Origin: Olivibacter sp. XZL3
Lineage (GTDB): Bacteria > Bacteroidota > Bacteroidia > Sphingobacteriales > Sphingobacteriaceae
Reading direction: 5' to 3'
Assembly: GCF_004368405.1 (NCBI RefSeq)
Contig: NZ_SBJH01000008.1
Location: 1 to 64,000 of the forward strand
DNA length: 64,000 nucleotides
The notes beneath the pieces are model-generated. The model was not told where the DNA came from. It saw only the letters and a program-made list of their open reading frames with translations, and ran no database searches. The translations under genes and the position numbers were made by a program. Positions 53,366-59,213 of the stretch are shown here, one piece after another. How positions within the stretch are numbered: position 1 is the first letter of the stretch; each line of letters begins with the position of its first letter.

Positions 53366-53594
53366 AAGGATGGATTTCAAGGGTGTTTGTTTTGCTTAAC
53401 TTTTTCTTAAATTCGTTGTTACTGGTTAAAGACGACTTTGTTTTACGATATAAGCGACGCGCGCTCTTTTTATCGGTAAACACATCAAGTGTACAGTATA
53501 TTCTTGTAAATTGCAACCTCCTACGTATTGTTGTGTAATCTTATAAAGGCCGTTGAGATATAAGATAGGGCATGATGCGATAGAATAAATATAA

Positions 53595-54575
53595 ATGCTA
53601 ATGAAATATAACAGATTTTTGATCTTATTATTGTTTACCATTGGACTCATTTCTTGTAATAATGCCAAAAGGCAGCATAATGTTCCTCGGGTGGGATTCA
53701 TAGAAGCTTTTGAAGACGCTACGATAGCAGAAGCGCGTAAAGGTTTTGTAGAGGCCCTGGCGGCAAATGGCTACAGCGAACAGGATAAAACGGTGAAAAT
53801 TATTTCAAAGAATGCACAGAGCGATATGGGAGCGATGAGTCAAATTGTGAGTTATATGCAAGCTGAAGACGTCGACTGCATCGGCACAAGCACGACGATG
53901 TCAACCTTGGCAACGGTACAGCGAATCAAGGATATTCCCATATTCATGTGCGTTACGGCCATGCCCCATTTGTTAGGCTTAGCGGATAAAGATAAAAAAG
54001 GGCCGCAAAATTTATTTGGTGTGGGCGAAGAGCTCAACTATATCGATACTTCCTTTGCAATTATTCAACAGGTTGTGAAGCCCAAGAAAAAAAATCAATT
54101 GCGCATCGGGATGATTTATAACCAGGCCGAGCAGCAGTCGGTCGACGCTTTCAACCGACTCGACAAATTGGCGAAGGAAAAGCAAGTCGAACTGATCGCC
54201 TTGCCGCTTAATACCTCGGCGGACGCGCAACTCGTGGCGCGGGCGCTGTTGAGAAGAAAGATTGATGCTTTTTTCGCGAATCCCGACAATACGGTGTTTG
54301 CCGCTTTTGAGACTATTCTCAATAGTTGCGATGAAAATAACATTCCGGTTTTCACCAGCGAAGTGGGTTTGGTAAAAAGGGGAGCTGTAGCAGCATATGG
54401 AGCAGATATTTACCAATGGGGATACCAAGCAGGGGAAGAAGCCGCTAAGTTTTTGAAGTCGAAGACGACCGATGGCCTTCGTGTAGAAAAAGTCAAGGTG
54501 AGGAGGAGGGTGTTCAATGAGGCTGCTGCCGCTAAGTTTAGACTTACTTTTCCCGGAAACTTCGAAAAGCTATAA
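53595..54575 (+). CDS. ABC transporter substrate-binding lipoprotein (TrpX-like)
   Basis: A 326-residue lipoprotein with a signal ending IGLISCNNAK; Met3 is an equally good start. It has the two-lobed fold of the PF04392-type substrate-binding proteins: PRVGFIEAFEDATIAEARKG... at the start of the first lobe, then TSTTMSTLATVQRIKDIPI, and the CDENNIPVFTSEVGLVKRGAVAAYG segment in the second lobe. Related proteins bind tryptophan, tyrosine or other small ligands. It is the first gene of a plus-strand run with permease and ATPase genes. The ligand is not evident from sequence. Confidence 0.9.
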   Translation: MLMKYNRFLILLLFTIGLISCNNAKRQHNVPRVGFIEAFEDATIAEARKGFVEALAANGYSEQDKTVKIISKNAQSDMGAMSQIVSYMQAEDVDCIGTSTTMSTLATVQRIKDIPIFMCVTAMPHLLGLADKDKKGPQNLFGVGEELNYIDTSFAIIQQVVKPKKKNQLRIGMIYNQAEQQSVDAFNRLDKLAKEKQVELIALPLNTSADAQLVARALLRRKIDAFFANPDNTVFAAFETILNSCDENNIPVFTSEVGLVKRGAVAAYGADIYQWGYQAGEEAAKFLKSKTTDGLRVEKVKVRRRVFNEAAAAKFRLTFPGNFEKL

Positions 54576-54587
54576 ATCCTTCATAGC

Positions 54588-55457
54588 ATGGACTTTTACT
54601 TCGCCGCTATATTACAAGGTTTGTGTTTCGCACCTATGGGTTTAGGTATTTACCTAACCATGAAAATTTTCAATTTCCCTGATATCACAACGGATGGGAG
54701 TTACACATTAGGAGCGGTAATTTGCGCACTGGGCTTAAGCCATCAGTTACCTTTTATCGTCTTATTGCCGTTGGTGCTACTCGGAGGCGCTGTAGCAGGG
54801 AGTTGTACAGCTTTTATTCATACCAAGCTGAAAATTAATGCGTTACTGGCTGGAATCTTAGTGATGACGGCACTTTATTCTGTAAACCTCACCCTACTGG
54901 GGCGTTCCAACATTCCGCTTTTAGGCTACACGAACCTTTTTTCTTTTGTACGAAATCCGGCCGTTAATATGTTTTTGATTGTTGCTGCGATCGTTATGCT
55001 GTTAATATTTACGCTCCATTATTTGTTGCGCACCGATTTTGGTATAGCCATGCGAGCTACGGGTAACAATGAGATTATGGTAAGATCTATGGGAGTAAAT
55101 ACCACTAAAATAAAGTGGATCGGTTTGGCCATCACGAATGCCTTGGTGGCTTTTAGTGGTTGTTTAATAGCACAGTTTCAGGGTTTTACGGATATTAATA
55201 TGGGGATAGGTATTGTTATTAGTGGCTTAGGTTCGGTAATGATTGCAGAGGCCATTATCAAGCTGTTGCAAACGGATAAAGTATGGATGAACCTTCTTAT
55301 GGTAGTTGTAGGCGTAACTGTCTTTCAACTGGTATTGGCCGTTACCTTGAGTATAGGCATAGACTCCTCTCTCCTAAAGTTGTTCACCGCTTGTTTTGTT
55401 TTACTAATTGTCGCTTTCGCCCAACGGGATTTCCTTGGAAGTGCAATAAAACGTTAA
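54588..55457 (+). CDS. ABC transporter permease (TrpY-like, BPD_transp_2)
   Basis: A 289-residue inner-membrane protein with about 8-9 hydrophobic segments. The family motif GLGIYLTMKIFNFPDITTDGS lies near residues 19-39, and the coupling-helix segment RATGNNEIMVRSMGVNTTK near 150-170. It is homologous to the permease subunits of TrpXYZ-type importers. It starts 12 bases after the binding-protein gene and ends two bases before the ATPase gene, so all three are in one operon. Confidence 0.93.
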   Translation: MDFYFAAILQGLCFAPMGLGIYLTMKIFNFPDITTDGSYTLGAVICALGLSHQLPFIVLLPLVLLGGAVAGSCTAFIHTKLKINALLAGILVMTALYSVNLTLLGRSNIPLLGYTNLFSFVRNPAVNMFLIVAAIVMLLIFTLHYLLRTDFGIAMRATGNNEIMVRSMGVNTTKIKWIGLAITNALVAFSGCLIAQFQGFTDINMGIGIVISGLGSVMIAEAIIKLLQTDKVWMNLLMVVVGVTVFQLVLAVTLSIGIDSSLLKLFTACFVLLIVAFAQRDFLGSAIKR

Positions 55458-55459
55458 AG

Positions 55460-56215
55460 ATGCTTGTTTTCAACGATGTAAGTAAGAGCTTTTTTTCTAA
55501 TAAACCGAACGAAGTAAAGGCTTTGGATCGGCTTTCGTTAACCGTATCATCAGGCGAATTTGTCTCTGTAGTCGGCGCTAATGGCTCGGGTAAAAGCACC
55601 CTGCAGAACTTGGTGGCCGGTACCATTATGGCCGATAGAGGTAATATCCGACTGAATGGTGAATTGATTACTGGTATGGCTGATTACAAGCGAAGCCGTT
55701 GGATTGCCCGTGTGTTTCAGGATCCCTTGCAAGGTACAGCTCCCGAATTGAGTATCTTAGACAATTTTAGGTTAGCGGCCCTTCGGGGAAAAGCAAAGAA
55801 ACTGAAAATTGGCATAGACAAGGCCTTTAAAGAAAGGGTTAAACAGCAAGTACAGTTATTGAACATGGGGCTGGAAGATAAGATCCACCAACCTATGGGT
55901 TTGTTAAGCGGCGGGCAACGACAGGCACTGACCTTGTTGATGACGGTGATGAATGACGTCAAATTACTTTTATTGGATGAACCGACGGCTGCGCTAGATC
56001 CGCGCTCTGCTTCTCGCGTTATGGAACTGGCTAACCGCTTGGTGGCAGATTACCAGCTTACGGTGCTCTTTATTACGCACAATATGAAAGAGGCGCTTCG
56101 CTATGGTGACCGATTGATTCAGTTATCGCATGGCCGGATAAAGAGGGACGTAGGGGCCGAAGATAAAGGCATGCTAAAACCGCAAGATTTATATGAATGG
56201 TTTAATGAGGATTGA
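55460..56215 (+). CDS. ABC transporter ATP-binding protein (TrpZ-like)
   Basis: A 251-residue ATPase from the ATG at 55460; the longer frame starting at 55283 overlaps the permease gene and is not conserved. Walker A is VVGANGSGKST near 39-49, the signature LLSGGQRQALTLL near 150, and Walker B LLLLDEPTAALD near 170, followed by the H-loop FITHN. It energises the permease encoded just upstream. Confidence 0.93.
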   Translation: MLVFNDVSKSFFSNKPNEVKALDRLSLTVSSGEFVSVVGANGSGKSTLQNLVAGTIMADRGNIRLNGELITGMADYKRSRWIARVFQDPLQGTAPELSILDNFRLAALRGKAKKLKIGIDKAFKERVKQQVQLLNMGLEDKIHQPMGLLSGGQRQALTLLMTVMNDVKLLLLDEPTAALDPRSASRVMELANRLVADYQLTVLFITHNMKEALRYGDRLIQLSHGRIKRDVGAEDKGMLKPQDLYEWFNED

Positions 56216-56237
56216 ATAAAACTTGTATATTCGCCCT

Positions 56238-56888
56238 ATGTTGAGCGCTCGAGGCATAAAGAAATCGTATGGCAATCTCCAAATTTTAAAAGGTGTTGAT
56301 TTGGAGATAAAGAAAGGTGAAATTGTTAGCATCGTCGGGGCTTCCGGAGCAGGAAAAAGTACGCTTCTTCATATTTTGGGTTCTTTGGATACACCTGATA
56401 AAGGACAGGTCGTTCTAAACGATACGGAATTGTCAAAATTATCTCCCAATAAATTGAGTGCCTTTAGAAACAAGCACATTGGGTTTATTTTCCAATTTCA
56501 TCATCTGCTTCCGGAATTTACAGCACTGGAGAATATTTGCATCCCGGCTTTTATTGCCGGAAAAGGGAAGGTCGAAAGTGAAGAGCGGGCGCGTCAATTA
56601 TTGGATAGGCTGCAAGTAGGCGATCGTGCCGACCATAAACCCAATGCGCTATCGGGTGGTGAGCAGCAGCGCGTGTCGGTTGCGAGAGCGCTGATGAACA
56701 ATCCGTCCATTATTCTAGCAGATGAGCCCTCGGGCAATTTGGATTCGGAAAATGCGGAAGCCTTGCATCATCTCTTTGTGCAACTGAGAAGTGAATTACA
56801 GCAAACCTTTGTTATTGTGACACATAATGAGCATTTGGCAGATATATCGGACCGGACGGTTCATATGAAGGACGGCTTGATTGTTTAA
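56238..56888 (+). CDS. LolD-like ABC ATP-binding protein
   Basis: A 216-residue ATPase from the ATG at 56238 (a TTG five codons upstream is rejected). Walker [10 protein letters not shown] (about 34-42), signature [16 protein letters not shown] and Walker [14 protein letters not shown] are intact, and the [16 protein letters not shown]-loop region is typical of LolD/MacB-type ATPases. Its partner permease (LolC/E type) is not in the window, so it must work with one encoded elsewhere. It follows the TrpZ-like gene by 22 bases; that may be coincidence of operon placement. Confidence 0.9.
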
Positions 56889-56933
56889 TGAAACCGTCTG
56901 GATTCAAAGGCTCCTAGATTAATTAGCACTTTA

Positions 56934-57413
56934 ATGAATATATTAATTACCGCGGGCATGAGTACACTGTCGCAGAGACTTATGCGTATTTTTTCTAAAG
57001 AAGATCAGGTGTTACTCGGCGACAATGTGGCCATTCCTGATTTGCTAATCCGAAGCGGAAAATATATGATAACGCCGTCAACCAAGAACGCCGCATTCAA
57101 TCACGAAATGTTGAAAATTGGCATCAGTCGCGAATTGGACCTCATCGTACCTTTGCGAATGGCTGAAATCGTTCAATTGACTGAATGCAAGGAGCTGTTT
57201 GTGGAATATGGGATACAGCTGGCGGTGCCGTCCCAACAGATTTTAGACGCCGTCGAATTTATTATTAATCCTGGTAAGGAACTCCATCCGGACATTTTGC
57301 TCAATGGTGAAACGTTTAGAGGCGGAATTAAAATTGAGGGATTGGAGAAGGAATCCGGCGTATGTGTGGTTTCAGACAGCGGAGAAGAAGCATTTTTTTG
57401 CTGTCTGGAATAG
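56934..57413 (+). CDS. stand-alone pre-ATP-grasp domain protein
   Basis: A 159-residue protein resembling only the N-terminal Rossmann-like pre-ATP-grasp domain of carbamoyl-phosphate-synthase-type ligases: NILITAGMSTLSQRLMRIF at the start, LGDNVAIPDLLIRSGKYMITPS (28-49), LDLIVPLRMAEIV near 73-85, and EYGIQLAVPSQQILDA. The ATP-binding grasp domain that should follow is missing; the rest is a short C-terminal tail. Without it the protein cannot be a ligase. It is followed 49 bases later by a HAD-family gene, and that gene pair with a full ATP-grasp enzyme is common in related bacteria as far as I know. It may be a degenerate paralogue with a regulatory or binding role. Confidence 0.65.
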   Translation: MNILITAGMSTLSQRLMRIFSKEDQVLLGDNVAIPDLLIRSGKYMITPSTKNAAFNHEMLKIGISRELDLIVPLRMAEIVQLTECKELFVEYGIQLAVPSQQILDAVEFIINPGKELHPDILLNGETFRGGIKIEGLEKESGVCVVSDSGEEAFFCCLE

Positions 57414-57462
57414 ATCTAAGACGATTGCTGATCGCGGAAGGCTTCGTTACAGCAGAAGAGAC

Positions 57463-58083
57463 ATGATTACATATAAAGATTTAGTTAAGAACAAGAAAGC
57501 TTTCGTTTTTGAAGTTGATGATGTATTGTATCCGGAGAAGGATTATCTGTTACAGGTGTATTATCTGTTCGCGCATCTACTCGAATACACCGAAACCGTG
57601 CCACCTGCGGCCGATTTAACTGCCTTCTTAAAAAAAGCATACGAACATCACGGCAGCGAGAGCATCTTTGAGCGAGCGGCCGCCGTTTTTGGGATCGACG
57701 GTAAGTATCTGGAGAATTTCAAAAGAATGCACGTGAATGCTCAGCTACCATTAAAATTGTTGCTGTTCGAAGAAATAAAGGAAATGCTGCAGGATATCGT
57801 TGCCGACGGAAAGCAAATTTTAGTGCTTACGAAGGGGAATCCCTTAATGCAGTTGAATAAATTGAAGCAGATTGAGTGGGGTGCTTTACGCGAACACGTG
57901 AAAATGTATTTTTATGATGAACTCGTATTGCAAGGGGAAGTCAATCCGCTTGGCTATCTGTTAGCAGACAATCAACTCAGCCAAGGGGAGGTGCTTCTCG
58001 TCGGTCGACAGACGGTATGGAGCGAAGGGACGTTAGAAAACGATGTCGATTACCTTCCGGTCGAATTGCTGTTGAAAGGGTGA
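57463..58083 (+). CDS. HAD-family protein with a lost catalytic Asp
   Basis: A 206-residue protein from the ATG at 57463 (the frame continues to 57304 but that part overlaps the upstream gene). It has the HAD-IA layout with a helical cap (about 28-105). Motif I reads FEVDDVLYPEKD (16-27): Glu17 stands where the nucleophilic Asp should be, although Asp19 is kept. Motif II is VLTKGN (121-126). Motif IV reads VGRQTVWS near 180-187 in place of a G-D/N-S-x-x-D pattern, so the Mg-binding Asp is absent. It is probably inactive as a phosphatase. Together with the truncated pre-ATP-grasp gene it looks like a non-catalytic pair. Confidence 0.75.
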   Translation: MITYKDLVKNKKAFVFEVDDVLYPEKDYLLQVYYLFAHLLEYTETVPPAADLTAFLKKAYEHHGSESIFERAAAVFGIDGKYLENFKRMHVNAQLPLKLLLFEEIKEMLQDIVADGKQILVLTKGNPLMQLNKLKQIEWGALREHVKMYFYDELVLQGEVNPLGYLLADNQLSQGEVLLVGRQTVWSEGTLENDVDYLPVELLLKG

Positions 58084-58175
58084 AGAATATGAATCATCAA
58101 AACATTTTGTATCTTGCAACTAGTTACTTCTCATTATTAATCTGCCTGCAAGAAAGGCTTTAATTCTAGCGTTTT

Positions 58176-59213
58176 ATGAATAAAAGCAAACAACCAACGA
58201 TTAAAGAAATCGCTAAGCGGCTAAAGATATCTACGTCAACCGTTTCCCGTGCGCTTAACGATCATCCGAGTATTGGTTTAGTGACGACGATGCGGGTTAA
58301 GAAACTGGCGGACGAATTAAACTATGAACCAAACCGGACTGCCATTTTTTTTAAACAGAGGAAAACATTTACCATAGGTGTCATCTTGCCTAGTTTGTCG
58401 GAAGCCTTCTTTTCTGCGGCGATAAGTGAAATTGAGAATTTTGCAAACAGTAAGAACTATACAGTTATTCTCGGCCAGTCCTTAGATGATCCGGAACGTG
58501 AATTGCGGATCATCAATACCATGAAAGGGCATCGGGTAGACGGAATTATCCTTTCTTCTGCGAAAAACACTCGCGAATTTGAGTATATCGAAATACTGAG
58601 GAAGGCCGGCATTCCGATTGTTTTCTTCGATTGTGTACCTGACCTTCCCGAGATTAATGCCATTGTGAGTAATCTAAAGACCGGAATGAAAGAGGCTATT
58701 GATACATTTGTTTCCTGCGGTCACCGGAACATAGCTTTTATTAACGGCCCGGCGCACCTGCCCGCAAGTAAGGAAAGAGAGGAAGCTTTTACAGAAGCAT
58801 TAGTAAGCAACAAGGTTCCTTTGAATCGTGATTTCGTCGTATATACCGACTTATCTGAAAAAGGAAACGCCGATGCTATTTTACAGCTGATTAATTTAAG
58901 TCAAAGACCATCTGCCGTTGTTTCATTCAACGACTATGTTACCTTAGACGCCATGAATGCCGTCCGTAGCAAAGGGTTAACGGTGAACCAGGATATTTTT
59001 TTTATCAGTTATGCGAATTATCCGATATGGAAATATATGGAGAATCCACCCATGGCTTCCATTGAACAATTGCCCGGAAAACAGGGCGCCCTAGCTGCCG
59101 AAATGTTATTTGATCTGATCGATCGGAATGTGGATTTGAATACGGACGATCCCATTGCTACAGAGGGGCAAAAAATCGTTTTGGAATCCAAATTGGTCAA
59201 TCAACACGTATAG
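58176..59213 (+). CDS. LacI family transcriptional regulator
   Basis: A 345-residue repressor: helix-turn-helix and hinge in the first 60 residues (TIKEIAKRLKISTSTVSRAL, 8-27) and a periplasmic-binding-protein-like effector domain (about 62-335). Its target is not next to it in the usual way, but two CG-centred palindromic sites of LacI type lie at 62277-62318, between the NahK-like and GH109 genes 3 kb downstream. It could therefore control that amino-sugar module; this is inference from motif and distance. It is followed by trxB after 126 bases. Confidence 0.92.
   Translation: MNKSKQPTIKEIAKRLKISTSTVSRALNDHPSIGLVTTMRVKKLADELNYEPNRTAIFFKQRKTFTIGVILPSLSEAFFSAAISEIENFANSKNYTVILGQSLDDPERELRIINTMKGHRVDGIILSSAKNTREFEYIEILRKAGIPIVFFDCVPDLPEINAIVSNLKTGMKEAIDTFVSCGHRNIAFINGPAHLPASKEREEAFTEALVSNKVPLNRDFVVYTDLSEKGNADAILQLINLSQRPSAVVSFNDYVTLDAMNAVRSKGLTVNQDIFFISYANYPIWKYMENPPMASIEQLPGKQGALAAEMLFDLIDRNVDLNTDDPIATEGQKIVLESKLVNQHV

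Follow-up and report, generated by a model that had tools for sequence, protein, structure and literature searches.

A conserved pair of pre-ATP-grasp and HAD proteins beside a lolD-like gene in Sphingobacteriaceae is probably noncatalytic

Two adjacent genes in a 64,000-nucleotide stretch of DNA from Olivibacter sp. XZL3 (the window, part of genome G000) raise the question of why two proteins that resemble enzymes and lack key catalytic parts have been kept side by side. The first gene (positions 56934 to 57413, forward strand) is an open frame for a pre-ATP-grasp domain protein of 159 residues without an ATP-grasp domain, here called PRE. The second (57463 to 58083, forward strand) encodes a degenerate HAD protein of 206 residues; its start was placed at the ATG at 57463, which is common to relatives, and not at the beginning of a longer frame from 57304. 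An initial annotation of this DNA proposed that both members of what looked like a two-enzyme pair had lost catalysis while both frames stayed intact, and that they had been retained for a noncatalytic function, for example as a decoy of an intact paralogous pair. Both frames are indeed open, and the remaining proposals are considered below.

Domain searches and searches for sequence relatives gave no match to an ATP-grasp nucleotide-binding domain in PRE. The N-terminal part weakly matched PylC-like_N (PF21360; E 0.0011, under the curated cutoff), and carbamoyl-phosphate-synthase-like ATP-grasp proteins matched weakly over residues 1 to 107 at most. Ligases of the ATPgrasp_Ter (PF15632)/PylC-like_N (PF21360) type have an N-terminal domain homologous to PRE; however, they comprise about 350 residues and include an ATP-grasp domain, whereas PRE comprises 159 residues and has none. 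The N-terminal homology is shown by the degenerate PRE of G034, which matched the intact ATP-grasp protein of G036 with an E value of 2e-7. Alignment to full-length relatives demonstrated that the ATP-grasp middle of PRE is gone and that a short C-terminal tail is kept. Thus, the first protein does end up without its ATP-grasp domain, as had been annotated, but because the middle is missing and the tail remains, a plain early stop is not the explanation. PRE is probably a Rossmann-like domain; its structure model (pLDDT 41) was too poor for use.

The second protein matched PF00702 and PF13419, in both cases under the cutoff. An AF2 model made from a three-row alignment (pLDDT 73, pTM 0.69) was used for a Foldseek search, which gave a best E value of 2.2e-6 and 112 PDB matches at E <= 0.001. 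The 50 of these 112 matches that were listed all had HAD or compatible names, with modest TM-scores (0.4 to 0.54) and rmsd values of 6 to 12. The model thus indicates that the protein has the HAD fold; a search of the PDB with the HAD alignment found no sequence relatives at E <= 0.01. Positions (numbered as in the window HAD protein) were assigned to HAD motifs from the alignment with intact relatives and from the usual form of these motifs. As in HAD_2 (PF13419) proteins, the second Asp of motif I (D19) and the Thr of motif II (T123) are present; in contrast to them, the nucleophilic Asp of motif I is replaced by Glu (E17), the Lys of motif III by Gln (Q157), and both Asp residues of motif IV by Arg (R182) and Trp (W186). 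Position 21, also one of the catalytic positions, is Val. The Glu17 substitution and the absence of the motif IV Asp had been recognized in the initial annotation, and with both motif IV Asp residues and the motif III Lys gone, more has been lost than it had noted. Inactive HAD domains, which keep the fold without the catalytic Asp, are present in eukaryotic sugar-phosphate synthases. There, however, the domain is part of an active enzyme, whereas the window HAD protein is encoded separately, next to a partner that is also degenerate. Four other genomes of the genus (G001 to G004) show the same degenerate state as the window pair, which makes a sequencing error unlikely; as a cause of the truncation and the residue changes, such an error was also judged unlikely from conservation in relatives and from the dN/dS values given below.

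Intact counterparts of the pair exist in other lineages. An alignment of 99 HAD rows from 98 genomes, drawn from the 385 genomes with a match, contained 89 degenerate and 10 intact-type rows, fractions that are not family-wide estimates, as the rows are mostly best matches to the window and the intact ones were sought deliberately. The intact-type rows are those of G026, G027, G036, G068, G074, G014, G084, G093, G102, and G008b, the last being the second copy of G008. The HAD proteins of G014 and G074 are partial and without motif I. All eight intact-type copies with a readable motif I have Asp17 and an ATP-grasp partner of 344 to 352 residues, and six of the eight have every motif residue; of the other two, G068 is interrupted where its contig stops, and in G027 a short stretch is deleted at motif IV. 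In G093, the genes form a triad with matches to PIG-L (3.4e-16), ATPgrasp_Ter (3e-35), and HAD_2 (4.5e-16), and its intact ATP-grasp relative matches both PF15632 (3e-35) and PF21360 (5.6e-12). A PIG-L-like gene was read upstream in G093, G102, and G530, and the PIG-L-like counterparts in G026, G027, G036, and G008b belong to one protein cluster. G530, which is from another family, has a PIG-L/ATP-grasp/HAD triad with Asp in motif I; this triad adjoins proteins that by eye are glycosyltransferase-like and asparagine-synthetase-like. In all seven triads (G026, G027, G036, G093, G102, G530, and G008b), homologous ATP-grasp and HAD genes stand in the same order as PRE and HAD.

Next, the distribution of the pair was examined. 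In a first search, the window HAD protein matched in 32 of 60 genomes, which were 32 of the 37 family members and none of the 23 genomes from outside the family. With intact-type copies counted in, a HAD relative was found in 385 of 399 Sphingobacteriaceae genomes and in 372 of the 380 of good quality. A scan of named organisms with the same query returned two loci only, a record of Olivibacter domesticus DSM 18733 among them. The later addition of 22 loci (G241 was dropped because its frame was not recognized) brought the degenerate copies to 111. Of these, 105 carry Glu at position 17, three have Gly there, and Ala, Ser, and Asp occur once each; the other motif residues are kept as follows: D19 in 110, T123 in 106, K157 in 71, D182 in 3 (1 of the 89 aligned copies, that of G203), and D186 in 75. 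Thus, Glu17 is conserved in relatives; the first motif IV Asp is lost in nearly all copies, and the second is often kept. The G082 protein has Asp17, has lost motif IV, and has a partner of 290 residues.

A PRE of 84 to 290 residues lies upstream within about 0.2 kb in 85 of the 89 aligned degenerate loci, with 10 of these proteins having 233 to 290 residues, and 19 of the 22 added loci likewise showed a PRE (the others being G123, G274, and G138). The initial annotation would have failed had the pair not been conserved; these counts show that it is. The four aligned loci without an adjoining PRE are those of G016, G018, G025, and G028. A profile search, seeded with degenerate and intact sequences together, located PRE elsewhere in G018 and G028 and found none in G016 and G025, where HAD is present. 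Conversely, among the 14 genomes in which the family search found no HAD, 4 have PRE (G022, G389, G092, and G009), and for the other 10 these searches found no PRE either. Since some family genomes have one gene only or neither, neither PRE nor HAD is indispensable, and because single species have lost one partner, a strict PRE-HAD complex is disfavored. In G383 (L136), PRE is divided between two neighboring frames (84 and 73 residues), and in G172 (C44:26374-26897, L155), the HAD copy lies in two frames separated by one shift, through either decay or an assembly error.

Selection on the pair was assessed by Nei-Gojobori dN/dS for 24 pairs of sequences with greater than 80% identity, all from outside the genus of the window and not independent of each other. 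The 14 degenerate pairs with usable dS gave values of 0.060 to 0.114 for HAD and 0.028 to 0.264 for PRE, and 6 intact HAD pairs gave 0.074 to 0.170. Three pairs were dS saturated, and one (G021-G119; dS 0.02, dN/dS 0.54) was unused. The comparison proposed in the initial annotation therefore indicates, at the sequence level, that purifying selection acts on both proteins in relatives. In the degenerate HAD proteins, 16 of 176 positions reach 98% conservation or more, including D27, Q31, Y34, P96, K133, and W139. By conservation, Glu17 ranks 26th among the 176 positions, and position 182 would rank 159th. The core of the degenerate HAD protein, Glu17, and Asp19 are thus constrained; motif IV is not.

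To place the losses in time, HAD and rpoB trees were compared. In the HAD tree, from which the partial rows of G014 and G074 were omitted and for which the bootstrap had not settled, the 89 degenerate rows form one clade (100/99). An rpoB tree of 27 genomes with a midpoint root has three genomes from other families outside; within the family, the intact genomes G027 and G036 branch apart from a clade (97/90) made up of the 22 other members. Because the degenerate HAD proteins form one clade, the joint loss of their motifs and of the ATP-grasp domain is essentially one old event followed by later erosion; the correspondence between HAD motifs and partner length reflects this one event and not many independent ones. 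About four changes away from Glu17 can be counted in the HAD tree, at least three of them on well-supported branches. G082 is either an intermediate or a reversion, with Asp17 retained or regained. The intact state was probably ancestral, given the outgroup G530, the copy G008b, and the improbability that two active sites were regained.

What nearly all degenerate loci share, apart from the pair itself, is a neighbor. Directly upstream of PRE and in the same direction lies a lolD-like gene for an ABC transporter ATPase (56238 to 56888, forward strand); the best NCBIfam model for its product, scanned from 56235, is TIGR02211 (LolD), with an E value of 2.4e-83 and 279 bits, under the cutoff of 307.75. 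Scoring covered 98 loci, with G102 left out, and a same-strand lolD homologue was found within 400 nucleotides upstream in 87 of them, all degenerate, that is, in 87 of the 89 degenerate loci. The other two are G018 and G028, in which PRE lies beside lolD and HAD lies about 10 and about 31 kb away. PRE also lies beside lolD in the four genomes in which it occurs and no HAD was found (G022, G389, G092, and G009; loci L251, L253, L254, and L255), so that it adjoins lolD in six of six genomes with HAD elsewhere or not found. Triads of G026, G027, G036, and G093 also have lolD nearby; however, in G026, G036, and G093 its direction is opposite, and in G027 the distance is 2.2 kb. No lolD was seen near G008b, and the remaining intact-type loci are short. 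Degenerate loci thus differ from the triads in that no PIG-L gene separates lolD from PRE, active-site residues have been lost, and lolD is codirectional and directly upstream.

These results suggest the following history. By sequence, PRE and HAD are homologues of a catalytic-type pair, an ATPgrasp_Ter/PylC-type ligase and a HAD protein encoded behind a PIG-L deacetylase gene, and several genomes show synteny between the two kinds as well. Across most of the family, the ATP-grasp domain, the HAD nucleophile, and the first motif IV Asp are gone, and what is left of the pair lies directly behind the lolD-like gene, with both members held by purifying selection. Neither protein would then catalyze the old reaction. 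PRE and HAD, the latter with its Asp19, Thr123, and conserved cap region, would instead act as binding or scaffold proteins, most likely in an envelope process served by the LolD ATPase, with PRE tied more closely to lolD. We regard this reading of a conserved pseudoenzyme pair as a whole as somewhat probable. Its central part, retention for a noncatalytic role, is very likely, because catalytic parts have been lost, the pair is conserved, purifying selection acts on it in relatives, and other lineages have an intact version; on this point the initial annotation holds up. A functional link to LolD is put forward tentatively and as the less likely case, being based on gene order and on a lolD name that stands below the model cutoff. 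A more specific version, in which a two-enzyme and probably glycan-modifying module became noncatalytic accessory subunits of LolCDE near the origin of most Sphingobacteriaceae, is speculative and rather improbable; if true, it would amount to a lineage-specific control layer on outer membrane lipoprotein traffic.

Other explanations differ mainly in what they make of the same residues and neighbors. A noncatalytic pair with a job unrelated to LolD, such as the sensing of a sugar or nucleotide metabolite, with the lolD neighborhood giving shared expression only, has an appreciable chance of being right, although we would not bet on it: the old pocket residues Asp19 and Thr123 persist, and G018 and G028 show that HAD can stand apart from lolD, but the 87-of-89 adjacency and the six-of-six association of PRE with lolD run against it. 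The degenerate HAD protein could still be an enzyme with changed chemistry, in which Glu17, Asp19, and Thr123 form a new active site and PRE serves as a substrate-binding helper. The conservation of Glu17 (105/111; rank 26 of 176) and Asp19 (110/111), along with that of Thr123 (106/111), allows for this; however, 5 of the 111 copies have Gly, Ala, or Ser in place of Glu17, through three to four separate changes, which disfavors a catalytic Glu17; the first motif IV Asp and the motif III Lys are found in only 3 and 71 of 111 copies, and the window copy itself has neither the nucleophilic Asp, the motif III Lys, nor the motif IV Asp. We consider this explanation unlikely. Slow decay of a useless remnant that hitchhikes in an essential lolD operon is less likely still. 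PRE lengths vary, some genomes are without PRE, HAD, or both, the G172 HAD copy is broken, and the G383 PRE is split, all as decay would have it; nevertheless, dN/dS is well below 1 for both proteins, a HAD match was found in 372 of 380 good-quality genomes, 16 of 176 positions in the degenerate HAD proteins are at least 98% conserved, and HAD has been kept away from lolD in G018 and G028. From conservation and dN/dS, mere decay was judged unlikely.

That the two proteins act as a decoy for, or a regulator of, an intact paralogous pair encoded in their own genome is highly improbable; this part of the initial annotation was not supported for the genome of the window. At the sensitivity used, no intact ATP-grasp and HAD pair was detected in G000: the degenerate copy itself was the only HAD match with degenerate and intact queries, the intact ATP-grasp query had no match, and the one ATPgrasp_Ter match lies inside a 941-residue frame, presumably CarB by its length. 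The decoy idea thus finds no support there. G001 to G004 each had one HAD match and no separate intact ATP-grasp protein, the match of the intact ATP-grasp query in G002 being its own PRE. In favor of a decoy, G008 carries both kinds, a degenerate pair and an intact PIG-L/ATP-grasp/HAD triad (C31:339202-339738 and C1:376545-377015; L038 and L039). This is, however, the one family genome with a clear second, intact copy; second matches elsewhere, e.g., in G017, G018, and G024, are weak. With the window HAD query, two matches were obtained among the 399 family genomes only in G008 and in G172, where they are pieces of one broken copy.

Pseudoenzymes as such are a known kind of protein. What appears new is a pair lacking both active sites that accompanies lolD across a family: no description of one was found in the literature titles and abstract openings searched, although this tests novelty only weakly. 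A large part of the family shares the loss of catalysis in both members; set beside partners of intermediate length and sister lineages that are intact, it provides a natural series from a pathway to a noncatalytic module. If the association with lolD is functional, the conserved pseudoenzyme pair would be a sign that lipoprotein export in Bacteroidota has a part not yet known.

The surroundings of the lolD-PRE-HAD genes show several further features. A scan of positions 53400 to 58400 for promoters and terminators showed no excess over shuffled sequence (11 promoter-like sites against a mean of 9.0, and 3 terminator-like sites against 5.3). Three genes at 53595 to 56215, which by eye encode the substrate-binding protein, permease, and ATPase of an uptake ABC transporter, point in the same direction as lolD, PRE, and HAD, and homologues of them precede lolD in G001 to G004. 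In many of the loci, degenerate and intact, a gene that by eye is sucC-like lies on the far side of lolD; in G093, an extra gene for an 811-residue protein lies between the two. With lolD and the sucC-like gene as common neighbors, the degenerate and the intact pairs occupy a shared site, in favor of the history given above. Downstream of the pair, at 58176 to 59213, the window has a gene for a regulator of the LacI type (by eye), whose protein cluster has eight members among the compared loci. An S41-peptidase-like gene (by eye) follows HAD in at least 27 of 98 loci, many of which are short.
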